The position numbers and the translations under genes were made by a program. A stretch of 49,264 nucleotides of DNA from assembly GCA_017420535.1 (NCBI GenBank), contig JAFOIV010000083.1:1-49264 (forward strand). Reading direction: 5' to 3'. Every line of letters begins with the position of its first letter. Position 1 is the first letter of the stretch. Positions 2-49,263 of this stretch are shown here, piece by piece. This stretch comes from Eubacterium sp. (GTDB lineage Bacteria; Bacillota; Clostridia; Lachnospirales; Lachnospiraceae). The notes under the pieces were generated by a model. That model searched no databases and was not told the origin of the DNA. It saw nothing but the letters and a program-made list of their open reading frames with translations.

Positions 2-2929
2 GATAATTCAGGAAAATTAAAAATAGGTTTTCAGACAGATGAAAAAGGAAATACTTTTTATCTAAATCCTAAGATTGAAACAGGAGTATTTAGTGATGAT
101 AGTGGTAAAAGATATGTTGCAGATCTTAATGGATATGTAGTATCTGGTAAAGGCTTAAAAGAAGTTCAAATAAGTGATAGAGAAAAAGAATACTATTATC
201 TTAATGAGGATGGAAGTCTTTATTATGGTTGGATAAATATAGATGGATATGATTTTTATTTTAAAGACGAGATGGCTCGTAATGGTGTAGGTTATTGGGA
301 TGTGGATTATGATTTTGAAAATCATAAACAATATTACTATTATAAATGTTTTGATGAAAAGGGACATATAGTTAAAGATGCATATGTAGCTTATCATCCA
401 AATTATGCAAATAATAAAAATGAATTATCTATCATAGGCAAAGATGGATATTGCTTAGATGGATGGTTTGAATATAAGGGAAATAAGTATTTTAGCAATG
501 ATGGAGCGGTTATTTCTAACAGAGTAGTTAGAATAACTGATGATGGACGGCTGTATTATTTTTGGGATACTAATACTTCTGAGGGTACGAAATATTATTT
601 CAGACCAGATGGATCGTTAAATAAAGGGTGGTATAAAGGTTATTATTCTGACTCTAACGGAATATTACAAAAAGATGGTTGGACTACAATTGATGGTACA
701 AAGTATTACTTTGAAAATGGAAAGGTATTAAGTAATGACACCTATTATTTTGATGAAAATGATAAGAAGGTTAATAAATATGACTCTTATAAATATAAAT
801 ACGCTTTTGACTCAGAAGGTAAAATCGCGAATGGTTGGGTAAAGCATTCAGATTATATTCAATATTTTGTTGATGGACAGGAATATACAGGCTGGATCAC
901 TGAAGAAAATAATAAATATTATATTTCTAATTCAATCATGATTCGCAATCATGAAAAGTATATAGATGGCGTTTATTATTATTTTAATGAAGATGGTAAG
1001 GCCGCTAAGGGATGGATTAAAGATAATGTTCATGAAATCTGGTATTATCTTGATGAAGACTTTAAAGGACATAACGGATGGATTGGAGATTATTACATTT
1101 ATAATGGTAAAATGTTAACTGATATAGTTATCTATAAACACAAAACAAATGATGGAACAATTACTTATTCATTTTCAGAATCCAATGCAGTAGCTGCATA
1201 TGTTCTGGGAAAAAATGGTAAAATTATTAAAGGAAAAGGTGTAATAAATAGATATAATTCGGGCGTAGGAATACCTGTATTGACAGATAGTAAAACAGGA
1301 ATTGCATATCAGGGAAAATGGGTTAAAGAAAATGGAAAATGGTATTGCTATTACTATGGAGTAAAATTAATGTCTTTCCTAAATAATGACAATTATTTTC
1401 AAGAAAGAATAAATGGTAAGTTATATATCTTTAATAAGGATGGATCATTAGCTACAGGGTGGATTAAATATGAGGATGTTATTTATGAAGCAATTGAAAA
1501 TGGTGGAGGTGGCTATATTATCAAGGAAGATACTCGTCGTTATTATAGCAGTTCTTGGTATTATGCAGATGCCAATGGAAACCTTAAGAATGGATGGCTT
1601 AAATACAATGGTGCCTGGTATTATTTTTATAATGGGATGATGATGGTTAATTCTTATGTAAGTGATGATCTTAAATGGTATGCTGGTGCAGATGGAAAAT
1701 GCTATGTGATCAATGCAATTAAGAATAAAAAAGGTACTGGTTGGACTAAAGTCGATGGTAAATGGTATTACACTGTAAATGGTAATTTAATCAGGAATGA
1801 AGTTAGATCAATCAATGGAAAAAAATATTATTTTCGACCAGATGGTTCAATGAATATTGGATGGTATCATAATGTAACGAGCCGCGGAAATCATGGATGG
1901 TATTATTCAGATTCAAATGGTGTAATTCATCCGGATGGATGGATCACATCTGGTGGAGCAAAGTATTATCTGGAAAATGGACATACTTTATGTAATGGAA
2001 CATATTACTTTGATAAGAATAATAAGAGAGTTGAAAAAACTTCAGATTATAAAACAAAGTACTATTTTGATTCCAAAGGCCGAGTTGCAAATGGTTGGGT
2101 TAATAACAAAGATTGGTTTTATTACAAAAATGGCCAGAAATTCACTGGTTGGGTAAAATCTGGAAATGATTATTATTATTTTAACAACTCAGAAATGATT
2201 AAATCTAGTGTTAATTATGAAATAAATGGAGTTAAGTACGGCTTTAAACCTGATGGTAAAATGGCTAAAGGCTGGTATAAACATAATTCTAGTTGGTACT
2301 ATTATGATAATAATGGCAGTCCATATACTGGATGGCAGGGAGATTATTTCATTGAAGATGGAATAATGAAGACTTGGAGTCCTATTTTTAAAGTTAAAAA
2401 CCTTGATGGAATCATATCATATAAAACTTCATATAACTCTTTTGAAGATACGGTAATTGCCGCTTATTATTTAGGTGCTGATGGTAAAATCATTAAAGGT
2501 AAAAAAATAAATAATACTGGATATACGATCAACTATATATTAACGGATGAAAAAACTGGATTAGTAGATGAAGTAAAATGGGTTAAAGAAAGTGGCAAGT
2601 GGTATTGCTATAGATGGGGGCTTAGCTGGGATAATACATATGATAAGAAAAAATATATTATAGACATTGATGATAAAGAATATGGATTTAATGCAGATGG
2701 CTCTTTAGCTTCAGGTTGGTTTACAGATCGTAGTGGAAATAGATGTTATGCTAAATCAAATGTAAATCCTGAGAAGGAAACCAATTTATATACAGGATGG
2801 ATTACTGAAAATGGTGATAAATATTACATTTTAGAAGGTCGTCTGCTTCTTAATGATTATGTACCATATTCAAATGGATGGTATGCAGGAGAAGACGGAA
2901 AATGTAGGTTTATTGATTTTTCCCAATAA
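2..2929 (+). CDS. Large cell-wall-binding repeat protein, 5' partial
   Basis: The reading frame is open to the left window edge, so the start and any signal peptide lie outside; 975 residues are visible. The whole visible part consists of about 20-residue aromatic and glycine-rich repeats of the choline/glucan-binding type (GW..., KYYF..DG, WYYY..NG). Such repeats anchor surface proteins to cell-wall polymers. No catalytic domain is visible, so any enzymatic part must lie upstream. Two long units of about 370 residues, beginning at the KYYFRPDGS motifs (nt 590 and nt 1823) and ending at the WYAG-DGKC motifs (about nt 1715 and nt 2926), align along their length. This shows an old internal tandem duplication. 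Composition is more AT-rich than the housekeeping genes. A hairpin terminator follows directly. The first internal Met (nt 272) is not a credible start because the repeats continue upstream of it. Ligand and function are unknown. Confidence 0.85.
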   Translation, partial: DNSGKLKIGFQTDEKGNTFYLNPKIETGVFSDDSGKRYVADLNGYVVSGKGLKEVQISDREKEYYYLNEDGSLYYGWINIDGYDFYFKDEMARNGVGYWDVDYDFENHKQYYYYKCFDEKGHIVKDAYVAYHPNYANNKNELSIIGKDGYCLDGWFEYKGNKYFSNDGAVISNRVVRITDDGRLYYFWDTNTSEGTKYYFRPDGSLNKGWYKGYYSDSNGILQKDGWTTIDGTKYYFENGKVLSNDTYYFDENDKKVNKYDSYKYKYAFDSEGKIANGWVKHSDYIQYFVDGQEYTGWITEENNKYYISNSIMIRNHEKYIDGVYYYFNEDGKAAKGWIKDNVHEIWYYLDEDFKGHNGWIGDYYIYNGKMLTDIVIYKHKTNDGTITYSFSESNAVAAYVLGKNGKIIKGKGVINRYNSGVGIPVLTDSKTGIAYQGKWVKENGKWYCYYYGVKLMSFLNNDNYFQERINGKLYIFNKDGSLATGWIKYEDVIYEAIENGGGGYIIKEDTRRYYSSSWYYADANGNLKNGWLKYNGAWYYFYNGMMMVNSYVSDDLKWYAGADGKCYVINAIKNKKGTGWTKVDGKWYYTVNGNLIRNEVRSINGKKYYFRPDGSMNIGWYHNVTSRGNHGWYYSDSNGVIHPDGWITSGGAKYYLENGHTLCNGTYYFDKNNKRVEKTSDYKTKYYFDSKGRVANGWVNNKDWFYYKNGQKFTGWVKSGNDYYYFNNSEMIKSSVNYEINGVKYGFKPDGKMAKGWYKHNSSWYYYDNNGSPYTGWQGDYFIEDGIMKTWSPIFKVKNLDGIISYKTSYNSFEDTVIAAYYLGADGKIIKGKKINNTGYTINYILTDEKTGLVDEVKWVKESGKWYCYRWGLSWDNTYDKKKYIIDIDDKEYGFNADGSLASGWFTDRSGNRCYAKSNVNPEKETNLYTGWITENGDKYYILEGRLLLNDYVPYSNGWYAGEDGKCRFIDFSQ

Positions 2930-2946
2930 TCAATTTTATAAGTTAT

Positions 2947-2976
2947 AAGTGGGCCATAACATGGCCCACTTTTATT
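2947..2976 (+). terminator. Rho-independent terminator
   Basis: A perfect 11-bp stem (AAGTGGGCCAT pairing with ATGGCCCACTT) with a 3-nt loop is followed by TTTATT, 17 bases after the stop codon of the repeat protein. It separates that gene from the next one, which begins with its own strong ribosome binding site. Confidence 0.85.
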
Positions 2977-2993
2977 AAAGGAGGTTATCTCAT

Positions 2994-4382
2994 ATGGATA
3001 AGAAAAAGAAGACTCATTTACTTATACTGACAGTGATTATATTTTTTCTGATAGGAACATTGTATCGACAGATAGGAATATCAGATGTTTTGGCTGATGA
3101 TCATAATCATGATTGGAAAGTCGAGTGGAACTGGGTAAGTGATAAAGACGAAAAGTATACTTCAGCTAAGGCATTAATGACATGTTCTGAATGTAATGAA
3201 AAGAAAGAAATTGAGGCAGAAATTTCTATCGAAGAAGATGATGAGAATATAATATATACAGCTAAGATTCAATTATCTGAAGGGGAATATACAGATAAAA
3301 AAATAGTTAAAAAGAAATCAAAACTTCCAGTAGGGTGGAATAAGATTGCAGGAAAATGGTATTATGTCGATTCTGACCAGAGTTATCATAAGGGCTGGAA
3401 AAAAATAAATTCAAAATGGTATTACCTTGATAATTCAACAGGTGAGATGAAAACAGGATGGGTAAAGGATCAAGGTAACTGGTATTTTATGAATAAATCA
3501 GGAGTGATGCAGAAAGGCTGGCTTTCCAATAATGGAAAATGGTATTATATGGCAAATTCTGGAAAGGCATCAACAGGTTGGCATCAAATTGGAGGTAAAT
3601 GGTATTACTTTGATAAAACAACATGTGCGATGAAAACAGGTTGGGTATTTGATTCAAATAAATGGTATTATTTTAAATCTTCCGGAGAAATGCTTAAAGG
3701 CGGATGGCAATTTATTGGTGGAAAGTGGTACTATTTGTCAGTTCATGGAGACATGCAGACCGGTTGGTTGAAATATAATAATGACTGGTATTGTTTGGAT
3801 ACTAATGGAGAGATGTTACGCAACACAGTAGTAGATGACTATTTTCTTAATGAAAGTGGAAAATGGGTGAATATATCTATGGCTGAAGCTACAGGCATTT
3901 ATTCGTTAAAACTGCGGTTTGCAGACGGAGAAGTTGTAAATGTAACGGGAATAGATTTAAAGAAGGCGTCTTATCATCATTATTATGATAATGAGACTGT
4001 TCCACAGGCAATAGTTGCTGATGCTATATGTAAATACTATGCTGATTTAATAATGGCAGAACCTTCATTAAAAACAGATAAGGATAAAGTTGCTACTGCT
4101 GCATCTGTATCAGCTTCATTTTGCAGAGAATGTGCATATGGTCAAGATTCAGAGAGACATTACAGATCGCCTTATGGAGTATATGTCGGTAAAGTTTTTA
4201 CATGCGCTGGAGCAACCAGAGCCTTGGGTAGAATTTTAGATTATATGGGATATAGCTGGACTCATGCTAATGAAAATGAGTATAAGCATCAGTGGTGCAT
4301 TTTGAAAATGGATGGTAAGACAGGTTATGCCGATGGACAGGGATATTACGTTGGCTATGGTAAACACCCAGAAGATAAGTAA
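2994..4382 (+). CDS. Secreted transglutaminase-like protein with cell-wall-binding repeats
   Basis: The 462-residue product starts 9 bases after a strong AAAGGAGG site. Residues 1-34 form a signal peptide (KKKK, hydrophobic 8-25, VLADD). Residues 35-110 are a small acidic domain with a CSEC pair. Residues 111-290 contain about eight cell-wall-binding repeats (GW at 114, 134, 155, 175, 195, 216, 237, 257). The C-terminal 170 residues look like a transglutaminase/cysteine protease-like fold: Cys404 in FTCAGATRAL, His432 in KHQWCIL and Asp447 in GYADGQ are spaced like a Cys-His-Asp triad. The enzyme would act outside the cell, attached to the wall, cutting or cross-linking protein or peptidoglycan; the substrate cannot be told from sequence. 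The repeat type is the same as in the upstream giant protein, so both probably bind the same wall polymer. Confidence 0.75.
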   Translation: MDKKKKTHLLILTVIIFFLIGTLYRQIGISDVLADDHNHDWKVEWNWVSDKDEKYTSAKALMTCSECNEKKEIEAEISIEEDDENIIYTAKIQLSEGEYTDKKIVKKKSKLPVGWNKIAGKWYYVDSDQSYHKGWKKINSKWYYLDNSTGEMKTGWVKDQGNWYFMNKSGVMQKGWLSNNGKWYYMANSGKASTGWHQIGGKWYYFDKTTCAMKTGWVFDSNKWYYFKSSGEMLKGGWQFIGGKWYYLSVHGDMQTGWLKYNNDWYCLDTNGEMLRNTVVDDYFLNESGKWVNISMAEATGIYSLKLRFADGEVVNVTGIDLKKASYHHYYDNETVPQAIVADAICKYYADLIMAEPSLKTDKDKVATAASVSASFCRECAYGQDSERHYRSPYGVYVGKVFTCAGATRALGRILDYMGYSWTHANENEYKHQWCILKMDGKTGYADGQGYYVGYGKHPEDK

Positions 4383-11686: not shown

Positions 11687-11726
11687 AAAAAATGGACCAT
11701 GGTGCCAGGCACCATGGTCCATTTTT
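11687..11726. terminator. Bidirectional hairpin terminator, member of a dispersed hairpin family (copy 1)
   Basis: A nearly perfect inverted repeat (about 19-bp arms, AAAAATGGACCATGG... with its complement) ends in TTTTT. Its core ATGGACCAT...ATGGTCCAT and A/T-tract flanks recur at 43317-43371 and 46963-47017. It closes the lipoprotein operon. The centre (GGTGCC/GGCACC) differs from the other copies yet stays paired. Confidence 0.8.
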
Positions 11727-11737
11727 ATGTCTACTTC

Positions 11738-42676: not shown

Positions 42677-43273
42677 ATGAAAAACAAAAAGAATGTGGGT
42701 TTCTCGCTGATTGAACTGCTTATAGTTATTGGAATTATGGCAGTTCTTGCAGCGGCGCTTGCACCAGTTCTGATCAGGTATATCAACAAGGCTCGTGCAT
42801 CTGTTGATATCGACAATGCGAGAGGAGTGTTCAACAGCTTTATGAATGCTCTTAACGATGAGGAGATTTCACTTCCAGATGATGTAGTTGTTGAGATCAT
42901 TATTTACCGTGATGGAACACGCAATGAAGTACGCACATTTAAGAATGGAACAGAGATGACTGATCCTGAAGTAGCAGCAAAGTTCTTTAATGACAAGGAT
43001 ATTGCCGAATCAGAGAAGAATTTCGTAAAGATGCTTACAAGACATGGATATGGACTTCACCTTATCAATGTAAAGCAGAGCGCAGAATGCTACATTGTTA
43101 CATTTAACGCAGCTGGTAAAGGATGCTATGCAGTAGTACCAACTGGTCATGTTAGCAGTAACCAGACATTTACAGGTCAGTATATACCTCAGCATGCAGG
43201 AATCGACGCTCCAAAGCAGAATTTCGGTTGGAACGAAGGCGAGTGCTACGAGTTCCAGTGGCCAAAACAGTAA
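42677..43273 (+). CDS. Type IV pilin-like protein (prepilin-type N-terminus)
   Basis: The 198-residue protein begins MKNKKNVGFSLIELLIVIGI, a class III signal: basic leader, cleavage after Gly, Phe at +1 and Glu at +5 of the mature protein, then a hydrophobic helix. The C-terminal part (about 45-198) is predicted extracellular with two Cys (YIVTF...KGCYAV and NEGECYEF). No pilus ATPase, platform protein or prepilin peptidase gene is in the window, so assembly would need genes elsewhere. TATAAT (42623-42628) may be its -10. Own terminator follows. Confidence 0.85.
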   Translation: MKNKKNVGFSLIELLIVIGIMAVLAAALAPVLIRYINKARASVDIDNARGVFNSFMNALNDEEISLPDDVVVEIIIYRDGTRNEVRTFKNGTEMTDPEVAAKFFNDKDIAESEKNFVKMLTRHGYGLHLINVKQSAECYIVTFNAAGKGCYAVVPTGHVSSNQTFTGQYIPQHAGIDAPKQNFGWNEGECYEFQWPKQ

Positions 43274-43315: not shown

Positions 43316-43379
43316 GGTTAACATAAAAATGGACCATAGTCCCGGGGGCTATGGTCCATTTTTATGTTAACTTGTATGG
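43316..43379. repeat. 64-bp hairpin direct repeat, left flank of the ABC block (hairpin family copy 2)
   Basis: A perfect 23-bp inverted repeat (GTTAACATAAAAATGGACC... and its complement) with a 9-base centre is followed by TTGTATGG. The same 64 bases recur at 46962-47025, differing only in the centre. It overlaps nothing here, while the right copy provides the ends of two genes. Confidence 0.88.
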
Positions 43380-43421
43380 GGCTGAGGGCAAAAGCGTGCT
43401 TTATTGCCGTCAATTGTATAG

Positions 43422-43451
43422 TTGACATTTATGTTGATATCACGGTAATAT
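43422..43451 (+). promoter_or_regulatory. Candidate promoter of the ABC block
   Basis: TTGACA (43422-43427), 18-bp spacer and TAATAT (43446-43451), 59 bases before the first gene of the block. A second possible start, TTGAAT with TAACTA, lies just downstream. Confidence 0.5.
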
Positions 43452-43510
43452 TGAATTGGTATAAAGGTATTGTTAACTATATATGATAAGGGTTTAACAG
43501 GGAGGTTTAT

Positions 43511-44113
43511 ATGCGAAGAAGAATATTACTTTCTTTTTTTATGGTAATAGTTTTTTTGATTTTTGCAATTATATATATATCCATAGATTACAAAAAGAAA
43601 TTTAAAAACTCTTCATCGGAAGATATCATTTATGGTGGAGCATGGCAAAGTCGTTTTTTTGATGATTATTGTTACTCTAGTAGTTATAAATGTGATCTGG
43701 TTAAGGATAAGATAGAAATAGATGTAAAAGAGATTGAAGGAAGTGCTATTTTTGAGATATACAAAGTGCATGATGGAACTGAAGTTCGTTTAATTACAGG
43801 GGATAGAGATGGAACACTAACGTTGGAAAAAAATAGAGATAAGATGGATTTAGTTTATTCTGAAATAATAGCTGATAAGAAAGTATATAAAACGGAATTT
43901 GATTATTATCAGGGGCCGGGGGAATATGTCGTTTTTGTCGCCCCAGAAAAAAATTCAAAAATCAAAGCGGAACATAGAGAATCAAAATGGGTTGTTAGAA
44001 AATTCTTATATTACAAAAATATCAGGGATAAACATGGCGTGATTGGTAAAAAGGTTTTGGAATTATTAGGTGAAGATATTTCGACCTATGAAGATGCTTT
44101 AAAGGCATATTAA
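43511..44113 (+). CDS. Membrane-anchored protein of unknown function, first gene of the ABC block
   Basis: The 200-residue protein has one N-terminal membrane helix (about 5-24) and a roughly 175-residue domain outside. No known family is recognised. The pattern (IIYGGAWQSRFFDDYCYSSSYKCDLVKDKIEIDVKEIEG) suggests a beta-rich extracytoplasmic domain. GGGAGG precedes the ATG. It is followed by two FtsX-like permeases and an ATPase and may be their partner or substrate-binding protein; that is inference from order. Confidence 0.6.
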   Translation: MRRRILLSFFMVIVFLIFAIIYISIDYKKKFKNSSSEDIIYGGAWQSRFFDDYCYSSSYKCDLVKDKIEIDVKEIEGSAIFEIYKVHDGTEVRLITGDRDGTLTLEKNRDKMDLVYSEIIADKKVYKTEFDYYQGPGEYVVFVAPEKNSKIKAEHRESKWVVRKFLYYKNIRDKHGVIGKKVLELLGEDISTYEDALKAY

Positions 44114-44149
44114 TCGGTTTATAATAAGGGGGATTCATAATAACAAGGT

Positions 44150-45235
44150 ATGAGAAGACTAAAATATAAAAATGAAATTCTATTTTTAATCTTAAGTTGT
44201 TCGTTGGCGATAATTATGTTTTTTATGCTGGCAGTAAATATCTATAAAGAATCAAATCAGAAAAAAGATGAAATAGAAAGGCTATATCATTATAAGGCTG
44301 TTTTTAGTTTATATAAGATTGACGAAAAAACAATGCAGGATATAGCTGATCTTGAAATCAAAAATTGCAGAATATCTATTGGGAATTTACCCATTTTTAT
44401 TGATGAATCAGAGATATCTTCCTTTGCTGTAAGCATGGAATTATATAATGATACAGATAGAAAGATACATCTTACATCAGGTGCTTTTCCTACAAAAGAG
44501 GAAATAAATGAAGAGGGAAAAATGGCTCTTGTAGGAATAAAGAATAAGGGCATAGTACATGATGGTTATATTACGATCCAAGGCGAAAACTATAAAGTAG
44601 CAGGATACATATCTGGAAAGTATTCATCATTATATAGCTTTGATATTTTGTTGTTTGATAAAAACATCAGCAATAATTTCTTAAAATGCGTAGATATAGC
44701 GTCGCAGATGGGAATGCCATATCTTATTATTGAAAGTGATGAAATGACTATTGATGAGATAGTAAATGTCGTTTCAGGATCACTGGATAATGAAAAAGTT
44801 TATAATGTGATGAGTTATGATGATATTCCTGTGGGATCAACTGTTGAATCAAGTACGATCCAGAATGTAAGAAAAATAACGATTGTCTTTTGCATTTTAA
44901 TGATATTTATTATGTGTTCAATCTGGATAAATTCGAAAATGTATGAATATGCAGTTAGAAAGGCATATGGGGAAAGTATTATCAGGTTACTTAAATCAAC
45001 TTTTTATGATTTGTTTAGATACATTTTAATATCGACAGTAATAGGTGTTAGTATAGCAATTTTAACATTAAAAATCGAAAATGTTATTATAACAAAAGAA
45101 ATATATAGCCTTAGTATAAGTGTCGCAGCGATAGTTATTGTAGCCTTGTCTCTAATAACTATTGTTGTACCATTTTTTAAGTTGATCAGAATTGACGCAG
45201 TTACTTTGATAAAAGAAAGCAGGGGGAAGAGATGA
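44150..45235 (+). CDS. FtsX/MacB-like ABC transporter permease (first)
   Basis: The 361-residue protein has one N-terminal membrane helix (about 8-28), an extracytoplasmic domain (about 29-240) and three C-terminal helices (about 242-262, 287-309, 326-350). This is the topology of the FtsX/MacB/LolC group. Such systems extract or expel lipids, peptides or lipoproteins by mechanotransmission rather than by transport through a pore. The start has no clear ribosome binding site close by (AAGG lies immediately before it). It overlaps the second permease by 4 bases (ATGA). Confidence 0.72.
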   Translation: MRRLKYKNEILFLILSCSLAIIMFFMLAVNIYKESNQKKDEIERLYHYKAVFSLYKIDEKTMQDIADLEIKNCRISIGNLPIFIDESEISSFAVSMELYNDTDRKIHLTSGAFPTKEEINEEGKMALVGIKNKGIVHDGYITIQGENYKVAGYISGKYSSLYSFDILLFDKNISNNFLKCVDIASQMGMPYLIIESDEMTIDEIVNVVSGSLDNEKVYNVMSYDDIPVGSTVESSTIQNVRKITIVFCILMIFIMCSIWINSKMYEYAVRKAYGESIIRLLKSTFYDLFRYILISTVIGVSIAILTLKIENVIITKEIYSLSISVAAIVIVALSLITIVVPFFKLIRIDAVTLIKESRGKR

Positions 45236-46302
45236 AGCTGTCATATGTATTTAAATATTCAATCTATCATATATTTAATCATAAAAAGAAGTTTTGGCTA
45301 TCTGTTTTCTTGCTGTGTTTATCGGCGCTGCAAATATTTATTGGGGGAGCATCATTAAGAGAATTCTTTTTATTAAGATTAGAATTTAAAAAGATAGCAG
45401 ATAAACCTCTAGGTGACATTTATCATGTAGTATTAGATACATATTCAATGTCTGCAATGGGAGAACATCAGAAAAGAGAGCTGGATTTTCATAACAAGAT
45501 AATGGAAATGGATGAAATCAAATATATTGGTGGGATAGATAAATGGTCAGAGGGGGCAATTATTGATGAAGACATTCTAAAGATGTTTAAAGTATATGAT
45601 TCTGACGGAAACAGAATTACATCAATAGAAGATTTTGTTGATCCGAAGATTAAAAAAACAGGATATCTGTATTATTTTAATTGTAGTCAGCCTAATAAAC
45701 TTTATCCAGGAACCGGAGAAAACAACGCTGTTATAAGTATTGAGAAAAATGAAGGGATTAAAAATGCACTTGATTATAGAATGCGATGCTTATTCATTGT
45801 TTTTAAAGATGGAATGGCAGAACAGGGAATTGAAAAGATCAAAGAATATGCTTCTGAAACCGGAATAATACTGGATGGAGTAAATCCTTTAGATGAAAAA
45901 ATTAGCAAGATCATTAATCATAAAATAAAGGATAATATAGAAGATTGGTTACTTTTCTTAGTGCTTTTTATTGTTTCAATTATGGCTATATCAGCCGTGA
46001 ACTATTTAGAAATAAAATCTAACGCTAAATTATTCAAGATAATGAGTATTAATGGTTTAACGATAGTTGATATTTCAAAGATTGTTTTGGTCGCTATGAT
46101 GATAAAATATCTTGTAGCTTGTGGGATATCATCTTTGATCTTACTAAAGGCTTTATCTAGTATAAAACAGTTGTATTTATTTAAAGAGTTTGAAATGAGT
46201 CTTATCTATATATTCATAGTAATGATCGTTTTCCTTATTATAGTAACGTTCATTATGCTGAAAAGAAGTTATGATTCAATGGACCACGGGGGAGATTTAT
46301 AA
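45232..46302 (+). CDS. FtsX/MacB-like ABC transporter permease (second)
   Basis: The 356-residue protein has the same topology as its partner: helix at about 20-37, large outer domain to about 240, then three helices (about 241-262, 280-306, 322-345). Two different half-permeases with one ATPase imply a heterodimeric transporter. It overlaps the first permease by 4 bases and the ATPase start by 1 base, so all three are translationally coupled. Similarity between the two permeases beyond topology is low. Confidence 0.72.
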   Translation: MKLSYVFKYSIYHIFNHKKKFWLSVFLLCLSALQIFIGGASLREFFLLRLEFKKIADKPLGDIYHVVLDTYSMSAMGEHQKRELDFHNKIMEMDEIKYIGGIDKWSEGAIIDEDILKMFKVYDSDGNRITSIEDFVDPKIKKTGYLYYFNCSQPNKLYPGTGENNAVISIEKNEGIKNALDYRMRCLFIVFKDGMAEQGIEKIKEYASETGIILDGVNPLDEKISKIINHKIKDNIEDWLLFLVLFIVSIMAISAVNYLEIKSNAKLFKIMSINGLTIVDISKIVLVAMMIKYLVACGISSLILLKALSSIKQLYLFKEFEMSLIYIFIVMIVFLIIVTFIMLKRSYDSMDHGGDL

Positions 46303-46967
46303 TGATTATTTTGGAAAATGTATCAAAGATTTATAAAGGTGATACGTATAATATAAACGCAGTAGATGACATTTCTCTTAAGATTAATGAAGGAGACTTT
46401 ATAGCATTTATGGGTAAATCCGGATCTGGGAAAACTACATTGCTTAATATTATCGCAGCATTGGAAAAACCTAGCAAAGGAAAATGTATAATAGATGATG
46501 TGGAAACAAATGGCCTTGGGATGTTAAAAATGGATAGATTAAGAAGAGATAAGGTTGGAGTTGTATTTCAGCATTTCGCTCTGGTTGATGAATTTTCTGT
46601 ATTTGAAAATGTTGAGCTGGTTACCGATGCTCTAAATATGAAAAGAAAAGAGAAGAATGAAAAAATAAAAGATGCTCTTAAAAAACTTGGGATTTATGAT
46701 CTTAGAAGTAAGCTTCCGAGAAAGATATCAGGTGGAGAAAAGCAAAGAACAGCAATAGCAAGAGTTCTGGTTAAGGATAGCAAATATATCATTGCAGATG
46801 AGCCGACGGGTGCCCTTGATTCAGAAAATGCCACCAATATCATGAAGATCTTTAAGCAGTTAAATGAGGAAGGAAAGACCATAATAATCGCAACTCACGA
46901 TAAAGACATAGCTTCTTACGCAAATAAGATAATTACTATTTCAAATGGAAAGATAGAAGAAGGTTAA
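46302..46967 (+). CDS. MacB/LolD-like ABC transporter ATP-binding protein
   Basis: The 221-residue ATPase has Walker A MGKSGSGKTTLLNI (about 37-50), the Q-loop VVFQHFALVDEFSVFENV, signature ISGGEKQRTAIARVL, Walker B YIIADEPTGALDSENA and H-loop ATHDKDIA. The family pattern (DEPTGALD after a short insert, GKSGSGKTT) matches LolD/MacB/FtsE-type ATPases that pair with FtsX-like permeases. The stop codon TAA lies inside the right 64-bp repeat (GGTTAAC). Confidence 0.93.
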   Translation: MIILENVSKIYKGDTYNINAVDDISLKINEGDFIAFMGKSGSGKTTLLNIIAALEKPSKGKCIIDDVETNGLGMLKMDRLRRDKVGVVFQHFALVDEFSVFENVELVTDALNMKRKEKNEKIKDALKKLGIYDLRSKLPRKISGGEKQRTAIARVLVKDSKYIIADEPTGALDSENATNIMKIFKQLNEEGKTIIIATHDKDIASYANKIITISNGKIEEG

Positions 46968-47025
46968 CATAAAAATGGACCATAGCCTCCGGGACTATGG
47001 TCCATTTTTATGTTAACTTGTATGG
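46962..47025. repeat. 64-bp hairpin direct repeat, right flank of the ABC block (hairpin family copy 3)
   Basis: This copy has the same 23-bp inverted-repeat arms as the left one, with a different 9-base centre. It provides the TAA stop of the ATPase gene on the plus strand and the TAA stop plus last codons of the MurE-family gene on the minus strand, and should terminate both transcripts. Confidence 0.88.
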
Positions 47026-48524
47026 ATTTGATCGTAAATCTGGAGAGCTCGTAATGTGAGTTCTACGTCAGATGGATAATCTAAATATTCTCTACCGTAT
47101 TTCTGGCGGGTTTCTTCACCCTTACCGGTGATAAGGAATACTGTTTTATTCTCAGCAGAAAGGATAGCCTTTTCAATAGCGGTTCCTCTGTCCTCGATCA
47201 TTTCATAAGGGCAGTTCTGAGCCTCTACATACTGAGCGATATCTTTTGAGATATCAATATAAGGTTCTTCTCCCGGATCTTCGGCTACAAGATAAACCTT
47301 ATCAGCGTACATTCCTGCAATGGTTCCAAGATGCTCACGACGAAGCTGGGCTTTCTTACCAGGACATCCAAAGATTGAAACAATATCATAATCAGGATAT
47401 TCTTCCCTGGTTGATCCGAAGAGCTTTTCGAAAGAAAGCTTGTTATGAGCGTAGTCAACAACAGCGATCATTCTGTTATCTTTACTCATATAACACTCCA
47501 TGCGGCCTTTTGATCTGGCGCGACGAAGACCTGATTCGATATAGCATACAGGAATATCATAAACATAGGCACAGGCAACAGCAGCGAGAGCATTTTCAAC
47601 ATTGAAAAGTCCCGGCATTGTAAGTGCAAAATCGTGATCAAATTTATCGGTATGCACTCTGAAACGGATCTCATTTCCAACTTTTCTGATATGTGAGCCA
47701 TAAACGTCAGCTTCCGGTTTTGTACCGAAAGTAATTACATGCTTTGCAGCCTTTGAAGCTTCAAGGATCCTGTCATAATGATCTGAATCTACATTTATTA
47801 TGGCATTATCAGTTTGAGCAAAAATCTTAAGCTTTGATTCGAAATAATCATCAAATGTAGGATGTTCAATGGCACTGATATGATCCTCAGAAATATTCAT
47901 GAAGATTCCTACATCAAACTGAACCTGATTAACACGGTCATATTTTAAAGCCTGAGAAGAAACTTCCATCTCAAGATAATCAATACCGGAATCGATGGCA
48001 TTCTGGAAATGGCGCATCAACTCAACTGTTTCCGGTGTTGTGATATGTGATTCTTTAAGAGTCTTACCATCATAAACATCAATAGAAGAGATGATAGCAC
48101 TTTCCGGCTTCTCCACATCCTTTAAATAATCATCGATGATGGCCTTTATATAGTATGCAGTTGTTGACTTTCCTTTAGTACCTGTAATACCTGTAAGCTT
48201 AAGTTTTTCAGCTGGAGCATTAAAAAACTTCTCAGCAAGATATGGCATAGCCTTTCTTATGTCAGAAACAAGGATGAAAGGTGCATTGACGTCATACTTA
48301 ATTGCACTGATATAACCAACGGCTCCTTTAGATAAAGCTGTTTTAAGATATTCTTCTTTAAATGTAACACCTTTGCAGATAAAGAGAGTACCAGGAGTTA
48401 CCTCGTTTGAATCATAGGTGAGATTTGTAATCTCTACCTCAGCAGCCTGCTTTAAATCACAATCTGTAAAGAGAGACACATCCTTCATCAGGTCCTTATA
48501 GTTTTCGAGAGTGTAAGTTTTCAT
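47013..48524 (-). CDS. murE: MurE-family UDP-N-acetylmuramoyl-peptide ligase
   Basis: The start MKTYTLENYKDLM follows GGAG; the frame extends 14 codons upstream, across the end of the neighbouring ATP-grasp gene, and is rejected. The 503 residues have the Mur ligase layout: N-terminal DSNEVTPGTLFICKG, ATP loop GITGTKGKSTTAYYI, substrate region TTPETVELMRHFQNAI, EVSSQAL and C-terminal VVDYAHNKLSFEKLFG. The usual DNPR meso-diaminopimelate motif is replaced by EDPGEEP, and the HAL of EVSSHAL is QAL. It therefore probably adds something other than meso-DAP, or modifies a different acceptor. It lies 13 bases after the ATP-grasp gene. Confidence 0.85.
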   Translation of the reverse strand: MKTYTLENYKDLMKDVSLFTDCDLKQAAEVEITNLTYDSNEVTPGTLFICKGVTFKEEYLKTALSKGAVGYISAIKYDVNAPFILVSDIRKAMPYLAEKFFNAPAEKLKLTGITGTKGKSTTAYYIKAIIDDYLKDVEKPESAIISSIDVYDGKTLKESHITTPETVELMRHFQNAIDSGIDYLEMEVSSQALKYDRVNQVQFDVGIFMNISEDHISAIEHPTFDDYFESKLKIFAQTDNAIINVDSDHYDRILEASKAAKHVITFGTKPEADVYGSHIRKVGNEIRFRVHTDKFDHDFALTMPGLFNVENALAAVACAYVYDIPVCYIESGLRRARSKGRMECYMSKDNRMIAVVDYAHNKLSFEKLFGSTREEYPDYDIVSIFGCPGKKAQLRREHLGTIAGMYADKVYLVAEDPGEEPYIDISKDIAQYVEAQNCPYEMIEDRGTAIEKAILSAENKTVFLITGKGEETRQKYGREYLDYPSDVELTLRALQIYDQIHTS

Positions 48525-48537
48525 AAAATGACTCCGC

Positions 48538-49263
48538 TTAGTTATAATAGGTCTTAAACTTTTCAAAGTGGCTGAAATGAAGCTTTAACATACGAAGTGT
48601 ACGGTTAAGCTTATTATCTCCCTTTAAGAAGATAGGATTAACATATTTCTTCTCTTTAAAAAGCCTTTTTAATTTTTTAAGATTCTCTTCCTCAAAGACA
48701 TACTTCTTGGCAACTGCTTTTGGAACAACAAGCCAGAGGTGTTCTTCTTTAGCTGTTGTAAATGGAAGAAGATTATCATAGATATATTCTTCTACAATGT
48801 ACTTGGCAACATTAAATCCTGAACCGGTAACATAGAAATTAGAGCGGCCCTGGCGAGTGTTGATCTCGAAGAATTTATACTTGCCATCACGACGGTCATA
48901 CTTAATGTCGAAATTTGAATATCCAACATAGTGAAGCTCCTCAAGAAGTTTTCTTACCTTTTCAGTAAGAGCTTCACAAGGTTCTGTTATTATTACCGCA
49001 TGATTGCCCTTACCATGTGGTGTATGTTCCTCTAACAGAACGTGACCAAGACACATCATTCTTACGGTGCCATAGTGATCTGAATATGAAGTGAGAACAC
49101 GCATGTATTCGTCATTTCCAGGGATCATATCCTGGATGATAAGTGAATCATCATATCCTGCGCCATAAATGTCATTTATAACCTTAACAAGTGTTTCCTG
49201 ATCTCGTATAGTATAAACCTTTTCCTGAGTAGGAAATTCATGCTGCCAGTAATTGATACCATT
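48538..49263 (-). CDS. ATP-grasp carboxylate-amine ligase, 5' partial
   Basis: The reading frame is open to the right window edge; 241 C-terminal residues are visible. ATP-grasp signs: SLIIQDMIPGNDEYMRVL, GYSNFDIKYDRRDGKYKFFEINTRQGRSNFY, where Glu, Asn and Arg of the EINTRQGRS segment match the metal- and nucleotide-binding end of the fold. The internal Met often taken as start lies inside the domain and is not the true start. Together with the adjoining MurE-family ligase it suggests a pair that makes or attaches an unusual peptidoglycan residue, as D-aspartate ligase does in enterococci; this is inference. Confidence 0.8.
   Translation of the reverse strand, partial: NGINYWQHEFPTQEKVYTIRDQETLVKVINDIYGAGYDDSLIIQDMIPGNDEYMRVLTSYSDHYGTVRMMCLGHVLLEEHTPHGKGNHAVIITEPCEALTEKVRKLLEELHYVGYSNFDIKYDRRDGKYKFFEINTRQGRSNFYVTGSGFNVAKYIVEEYIYDNLLPFTTAKEEHLWLVVPKAVAKKYVFEEENLKKLKRLFKEKKYVNPIFLKGDNKLNRTLRMLKLHFSHFEKFKTYYN

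Follow-up and report, generated by a model that had tools for sequence, protein, structure and literature searches.

Dispersed hairpin repeats at the borders of a four-gene ABC/FtsX block and of other gene blocks in Lachnospiraceae genomes

A four-gene block between two hairpins

The window analysed here is a stretch of 49,264 nt from a draft genome of Eubacterium sp. (Lachnospiraceae; contig JAFOIV010000083.1 of assembly GCA_017420535.1; 2.67 Mb in 134 contigs, hereafter the own genome), and our subject is a four-gene ABC/FtsX block of about 3.58 kb within it, together with the two 64-nt repeats that bracket it. The block, which had been described as AT-rich from its letters, has a GC content of 30.5%, compared to 38.9% and 38.1% in its flanks, and lies between a pilin-like gene and a murE-family gene (Table 1). 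The best NCBIfam model for its ABC ATPase was TIGR03608 (lactococcin 972-type export; 223.2 bits, under the cut-off of 254.85), and the murE-family protein scored above the cut-off of TIGR01085 (murE, 316.6 bits). No integrase or transposase family was found among the four block proteins in Pfam, NCBIfam or PHROGs, the only PHROGs match being to a general ABC ATPase, and the block does not carry the integrase of a site-specific island at a gene 3′ end.

The two repeats (43316-43379 and 46962-47025) are identical at 60 of 64 positions, with all of the mismatches in the hairpin centre, which bears out the preliminary description of the locus. Each contains a 55-nt hairpin with a predicted single-stranded DNA fold of about -24 kcal/mol, compared to a mean of about -4 kcal/mol for shuffled sequences (z of about -12; none of 200 shuffles was equally good). 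Compared as they stand, the left and right 55-mers are identical at 51 of 55 positions, and reverse-complementing one of them raises this to 54 of 55; hence, the pair is inverted by its centre and direct by its flank. Both hairpins are directly followed by the 8-nt extension TTGTATGG, which in the right copy belongs to the end of the murE-family gene, as had already been noticed. Its presence at the left junction has a chance expectation of about 1 in 65,000 for a given junction, and the match beyond the hairpin was clearly shorter at the other loci with inspected junctions. The outer GTTAAC of the right hairpin supplies two stop codons, the TAA of the ABC gene (46965-46967) and, on the minus strand, that of the murE-family gene (47015-47013).

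Table 1. Features of the window and loci at which a gene block is present or absent between hairpins
Feature	Position	Strand	Evidence or remark
Diverged member of the hairpin family, core TGGTGCCAGGCACCA	11688..11734	+	Hairpin profile 36.1 bits
Pilin-like gene with N-methylation motif of prepilins, next to the slot on its left	42677..43273	+	Pfam N_methyl 5.4e-07; kept in UBA3772 and RUG13451
Left hairpin, 55 nt, centre TCCCGGGGG, newcomer copy	43317..43371	+	
TTGTATGG, 8-nt extension common to the right copy	43372..43379	.	
Inserted block, 30.5% GC	43380..46961	+	Missing from this site in UBA3772 (G018) and RUG13451 (G061)
200-aa protein, N-terminal hydrophobic segment	43511..44113	+	No family match in Pfam, NCBIfam, PHROGs
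FtsX-like permease, 361 aa	44150..45235	+	Pfam FtsX 2.7e-07; TIGR01654 2.1e-05, far under cut-off
Second permease-like membrane protein, 356 aa	45232..46302	+	Assigned from position and hydrophobic segments; no family match (Pfam, NCBIfam, PHROGs)
ABC ATPase, 221 aa; TAA stop inside right hairpin	46302..46967	+	Pfam ABC_tran 8.3e-35
Right hairpin, 55 nt, centre CCTCCGGGA	46963..47017	-	55 letters equal to the single hairpin of RUG13451 (G061)
murE-family ligase gene; TAA stop inside right hairpin	47013..48566	-	Mur_ligase_M 8.5e-41, Mur_ligase_C 6.1e-22
TTGTATGG, native right flank, within murE-family gene	47018..47025	.	
Indel locus 1, window block			
Indel locus 2, 6.1 kb			DUF5724/DUF4132 protein; long allele in own genome and RUG13451
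Indel locus 3, 0.8 kb			SfsA
Indel locus 4, 0.6 kb			GNAT
Indel locus 5, slot beside transposase			Methyltransferase
Indel locus 6, 2.3 kb			Two-component system
Indel locus 7, 0.9 kb			Fer4 protein; long allele in own genome and UBA3772, absent in RUG13451
Indel locus 8, about 2 kb	G018:C149:48292-50274		
Indel locus 9, 1.7 kb	G061:C4:93066-94731		

A dispersed hairpin family and a linked Y1 transposase

The hairpin was found to be a multi-copy family. Allowing up to three mismatches, its 22-base arm matched the own genome 88 times (40 times forward and 48 times in reverse), and a half-site pattern did so 64 times, with no match to the reversed-pattern control in the first case or to the control in the second; the exact two-arm form had 39 forward matches on 11 contigs, and the copies are clustered in part of the genome. 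As the hairpin belongs to such a family, a unique attachment site is ruled out. The preliminary description had read the locus as an insertion next to an existing hairpin with duplication of the site, and had taken repeats no more similar to each other than to other genomic copies as a point against this reading. The addition of the block is supported, while the private duplicated site is not, and for the hairpin part the similarity is largely of that unfavourable kind: within the fetched contigs, copies on C96 and C8 match the right hairpin over 57 and 55 identical bases, respectively, and a copy on C69 matches the left hairpin over 52, compared to 51 of 55 between left and right. Among 61 relatives searched, the exact two-arm form occurred only in the own genome and in UBA3772 (G018). 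A scan over 84,980 species genomes returned 59 stretches. With two exceptions, they lie in UBA3772, RUG13451 (G061) and SRR12081298_bin.41, which are Lachnospiraceae metagenome-assembled genomes (MAGs); the exceptions, one each in Trinickia and Saccharibacteria, were on a single strand and 37 and 44 bases long, and were taken as chance. The exact-form hairpin had no match in a viral collection, which, together with the lack of any PHROGs match for the block proteins beyond the general ABC ATPase, led us to reject a phage or viral origin.

We then examined where the hairpins lie, using 138 full hairpins with open reading frames (ORFs; mechanical calls of at least 80 aa) on both sides in the fetched contigs of three genomes. 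Only two lay inside ORFs and, of the other 136, 108 were within 20 bp of a gene 3′ end, compared to 543 of 5000 random intergenic bases, and 56 overlapped an ORF end. The family is thus repetitive, extragenic, palindromic and close to gene 3′ ends, as are repetitive extragenic palindromic (REP) sequences in the wide sense. It lacks the unpaired 5′ GTAG tag of the GTAG REP superfamily: the outer hexamers are mostly GTTAAC, GTTGAC or GTTTAC and are paired, as is the GTAGAC that was found in two of 109 aligned copies. The two arms agree at three variable positions in 60 of 109 full hairpins, compared to 25.6 in shuffles, suggesting that the hairpins spread as symmetric units; the other 49 are no longer symmetric at these positions, so a large minority may now be hybrid or mutated hairpins. 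In a search for motifs in the hairpin flanks, the only words to emerge occurred 6-13 times, some of these occurrences being in orthologous copies. Tandem units of about 20 bp resembling AATGGACCATAGTCCCGGGG, as from slippage or repeated half-site copying, were seen within one hairpin arm at four places (G000:C49:14106-14170, G000:C69:22463-22525, G018:C69:5483-5552 and G018:C82:4742-4831).

A single Y1_Tnp match is present in the own genome (C96:26525-26863), and G018, G061 and G062, the other hairpin genomes, have matches that share its frame. The protein of 261 aa scored 44.2 bits against Pfam Y1_Tnp (2.6e-11; cut-off 23). H60, H62, Y119, N123 and P124 are invariant in 13 aligned proteins, giving the HUH motif and the Y---NP signature that the accessible text of Quentin et al. 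(2018, PMC6006769) assigns to TnpAREP class 2. A Q-I--R pattern is conserved in the C-terminal part of the 13 relatives, and residues 232-255 gave a weak match, below cut-off, to HTH_Tnp_ISL3 (E 7.9e-04). The gene lies, together with a second ORF (146 aa), between two hairpins with inverted 60-nt arms that are 87% complementary (C96:26003 and 27480), so that it is bracketed by inverted repeats forming a genomic family, as are the TIRYT genes.

A related transposase was found in 21 of 61 genus genomes: the own genome, three others at 88-97% identity (in one case over 125 residues only), which are the three hairpin-bearing MAGs named above, and the rest at 28-39%. Around the distant TIRYT loci, 6 of 13 adjoin other strong hairpins, several with GGGGAC cores. 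The link between hairpin and transposase is thus shown by their co-occurrence and by the position of the gene between two copies, and we infer that the enzyme acts on the hairpin. An unrelated second hairpin family, GGGACGGTTCTG..CAGAACCGTCCC, was observed in G002, G011, G025 and four other genus genomes (7 of 61, with 65, 47, 11, 9, 4, 3 and 2 copies); in each of the three richest genomes (65, 47 and 11 copies), it lies beside a distant transposase relative.

Gene blocks present or absent between hairpins

The window locus was compared between the own genome, UBA3772 and RUG13451, the fetched pieces of SRR12081298_bin.41 not including it. In both relatives, a single hairpin joins the outer flanks, leading from the pilin-like gene directly to the murE-family gene, which is the arrangement that the preliminary description had looked for in related strains. 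Over its 55 bases, the single hairpin of RUG13451 has the same letters as the right hairpin of the window; hence, of the two copies, it is the left one, the centre of which is flipped, that came later. The median flank identities (97.4% between the own genome and RUG13451, 93.1% between the own genome and UBA3772, and 94.3% between UBA3772 and RUG13451) place RUG13451 nearer to the own genome, so that the window block can be explained by a single gain in the own lineage. By parsimony, the block would have been gained after the split from RUG13451.

A whole-block match was found only in the own genome among 117 genomes searched, where scoring covered the best two candidates of each; elsewhere, the longest match spanned 584 of the 3582 bases and lay in the region of the ABC gene, and the others were short and mostly in that gene. 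In hairpin-free members of the genus, 11 murE orthologues (57-64% identity) had no pilin-like gene within the fetched flanks, two of them had yebC nearby, and none had the block. As the pilin-like gene was not seen there, these relatives could not polarise the insertion. The exchange of different cargo in one slot, which had also been suggested, was not cleanly seen: the slot beside the transposase has a methyltransferase gene in both UBA3772 and RUG13451, with one extra small ORF in the latter.

To place the window block among other events, we used pairwise alignments of fetched contigs from three species, counting indels of at least 400 bp with a short side of at most 150 bp. Out of 55 indels, 15 had a hairpin no more than 20 bp away at each end of the long allele and also at the short-allele junction, and 34 had one at this distance from at least one long-allele end, compared to a background of 2.6% of bases. 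By our own count, the 15 hairpin-to-hairpin indels represent nine distinct loci (Table 1), and their flanks mostly overlap by 49-64 bp, the length of the hairpin. At the 0.9-kb locus, the long alleles have a left hairpin GTTTAC...GTAAAC and a right hairpin ending in GTTAAC, and RUG13451 has a hybrid hairpin, GTTTAC...GTTAAC, which is probably a recombination scar. Since the own genome and UBA3772 have the block and RUG13451, the intermediate relative, has the hybrid hairpin, this points to a loss in RUG13451. Together with the gain at the window, this suggests that block events run both ways.

The same contigs gave some observations in their own right. A complete-looking Wadjet operon (G000:C14:30795-37406, or L032:10795-17406; JetA 1.4e-72, JetB 4.7e-56, JetC 2.4e-175 and JetD 6.7e-107) sits in a 12.7-kb stretch that is missing from UBA3772, one border of which is a diverged hairpin with a GGGGACAG core. 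An AAA-ATPase/PDDEXK_9 gene with an N-terminal helix-turn-helix occurs at G000:C49:18840-20699 and G018:C169:4914-6776 (80% identical DNA), in different places at the side of hairpins, each of which is empty in the other species; the two copies may be paralogues. In the window itself, positions 590-3800 contain numerous diverged direct repeats with the core GGWTGG...WGGTATTAT, as in a repeat-rich surface protein.

Explanations and relation to known systems

Taken together, the repeats of the window are probably dispersed palindromes of the REP/TIR (terminal inverted repeat) kind, belonging to a Y1 (HUH) transposase of the RAYT/TIRYT group and bordering the gain and loss of gene blocks, most likely through recombination. 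Hairpin copies would settle at gene 3′ ends, the placement seen here, where the outer GTTAAC often gives a stop codon; since they lie at gene 3′ ends, what two of them enclose is usually a single complete gene or a small number of complete genes. Recombination between hairpins, which offer 55 bp of near-identical palindrome in either orientation, would then add, delete or relocate such blocks, and one hairpin would remain once a block has gone, as suggested by the alleles seen at the nine loci. In the window, the four-gene block with its own hairpin would have come in next to a hairpin that already stood between the pilin-like gene and the murE-family gene. We consider recombination between dispersed hairpins more likely than transposition of the blocks, while an action of the transposase on them is possible.

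Several observations weigh against this reading. Ordinary indels are also common, as 40 of the 55 indels did not run from hairpin to hairpin and, in 21 of these, the long allele had a hairpin at neither of its ends; the contigs had been chosen for their hairpin content, and pairwise indels are not independent of each other. The compared genomes are all drafts, mostly MAGs, and exact matches of 52-57 bp between hairpins could mislead a short-k assembler. Orthologous hairpins had the same orientation in 60 of 61 pairs and were often identical, which argues for a fairly stable array and not for a fast shuffler. The 8-bp TTGTATGG is not accounted for by simple recombination within the hairpin; at the left junction, it may come from a small duplication of the hairpin and its flank, before or during the gain of the block. 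On the side of the enzyme, the match to REP_Tyr_transpos (NF047646; 1.9e-17, 63.5 bits) was under the cut-off of 80, which is why the transposase was filed as TIRYT-like and not as a canonical RAYT, and a search of PDB sequences gave no relative at E values up to 1. In addition, 7 of the 13 TIRYT loci were without a hairpin, and the four genomes with 2-9 copies of the second hairpin family gave no TIRYT match.

The transposase could also move hairpin-bracketed blocks as composite elements, by cutting single-stranded DNA at the hairpins, as IS200/IS605-like enzymes do, and pasting the block at another hairpin. This is rather unlikely, although the block borders coincide with hairpins, the transposase gene itself lies in a hairpin-bracketed unit, and blocks of 76-80% identity lie in different hairpin-bordered places in the own genome and UBA3772 (C49:18849-20785 and C169:4926-6860; C69:27857-32937 and C69:8944-13373). 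The empty alleles retain a whole hairpin, at least one of them a hybrid of the flanking hairpins, as recombination would leave it; the hairpin pairs around polymorphic blocks occur in both relative orientations, as a palindrome allows; and the 76-80% copies are under the usual orthologue identity of 93% and could be paralogues. An ancestral block, lost from UBA3772 and RUG13451 by recombination between its hairpins, is improbable: such loss clearly occurs, as at the 0.9-kb locus in RUG13451, but the order of flank identities would require two losses here, no whole-block match was found in 116 other genomes, and the centre of the left hairpin is oriented differently from both single-hairpin alleles. 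The draft state of the assembly (134 contigs) and the exact 52- and 57-bp matches between the window hairpins and others would allow a block from elsewhere to have been joined in through the repeated hairpin. We regard such an artefact as very unlikely, as a single contig would have to contain two wrong joins, the flanks on both sides are specific, as is the 8-bp extension, and other long alleles are found in two independent assemblies each (6.1 kb in the own genome and RUG13451; 0.9 kb in the own genome and UBA3772).

A tyrosine recombinase acting site-specifically on the hairpins (in an attachment system of the integron-like, dif-like or island type), which comes near to the wording of the preliminary description, appears highly improbable. 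The hairpins do have symmetric arms with an asymmetric centre and a cassette-like order of gene, hairpin, gene and hairpin, the own genome has nine matches to this recombinase family, and a partial match that stays under the cut-off is found close to hairpins, both on C19 and on the corresponding contig of UBA3772. However, no tyrosine recombinase was found inside the hairpin-bordered units with listed ORFs, inversion of the centre at orthologous sites is rare (1 of 61), and the arms span 22-23 bp and vary up to their ends. Since PF00589 matches were present in six of six genomes, with or without hairpins, the enzyme does not track the repeats and is not discriminating as a driver. The partial match itself (G000:C19:29254-29439 and G018:C82:535-720) has one in-frame stop. 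For serine recombinases, there was no PF00239 match in the own genome, and five of the six genomes searched had matches.

The preferred reading, in which REP/TIR-kind palindromes border block gain and loss, places the system close to the TIRYT families, which make up most of TnpAREP subclass 2.1 (Di Nocera et al. 2013, PMC3733652; Quentin et al. 2018, PMC6006769). According to the accessible text of the former, TIRYTs share with the present system a Y1 HUH transposase, long, partly self-complementary inverted repeats at its flanks and moderately abundant families, as well as GGGGWSAS-like cores, seen here in diverged copies (GGGGACAG) and around other TIRYTs of the genus; the C-terminal helix-turn-helix region of TIRYTs may also be present here. 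The present system differs in that a Lachnospiraceae genome has dozens of copies, which are concentrated in part of it and border the gain and loss of blocks. REPIN/RAYT systems, as far as the accessible text of Bertels and Rainey (2011, PMC3116915) describes them, likewise have dispersed extragenic hairpins at gene 3′ ends and one single-copy Y1 transposase, and both excision of REPINs and tandem units of REPIN plus flanking sequence are reported there. Unlike REPINs, most copies here have no GTAG tag (outer GTTAAC, GTTGAC or GTTTAC), and each is one short, tight palindrome instead of two REPs with a spacer. For REPs, the placement at 3′ ends and the supply of stop codons by the repeat are already known.

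In integrons, each gene unit has a repeated hairpin, attC, at its 3′ end, and whole units are gained and lost. The window system resembles such cassettes in outline, but it has a different hairpin family and no attC consensus, and it may lack an integron integrase and an attI platform. It is conceivable, if rather doubtful, that the TIRYT-like transposase and its hairpins form an integron-like gene-cassette system of Lachnospiraceae, in which the enzyme, or recombination provoked by it, excises and re-inserts whole-gene units, and that other species of the genus do likewise with unrelated hairpins. The minimal mobile elements of Neisseria are varied gene blocks between conserved flanks that are swapped by homologous recombination; there, the homology comes from the flanking genes, whereas here it comes from a dispersed repeat. 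In the accessible text of open PMC papers, with subscription papers not covered, we found no description of repeats of this type bordering gene blocks that are gained and lost; the kind of repeat is known, and its behaviour as a border appears to be new.

As a caution for the reading of these genomes, blocks bracketed by hairpins should not be taken for islands that carry an integrase of their own, and the results provide named loci at which an action of the enzyme could be told from general recombination. What RAYT-type enzymes and their repeats do for the host is an old open question. In three related genomes, blocks are present or absent exactly between hairpins, and in at least one case a recombinant hairpin appears to have been left behind, suggesting a concrete role for these repeats as borders for gene turnover.

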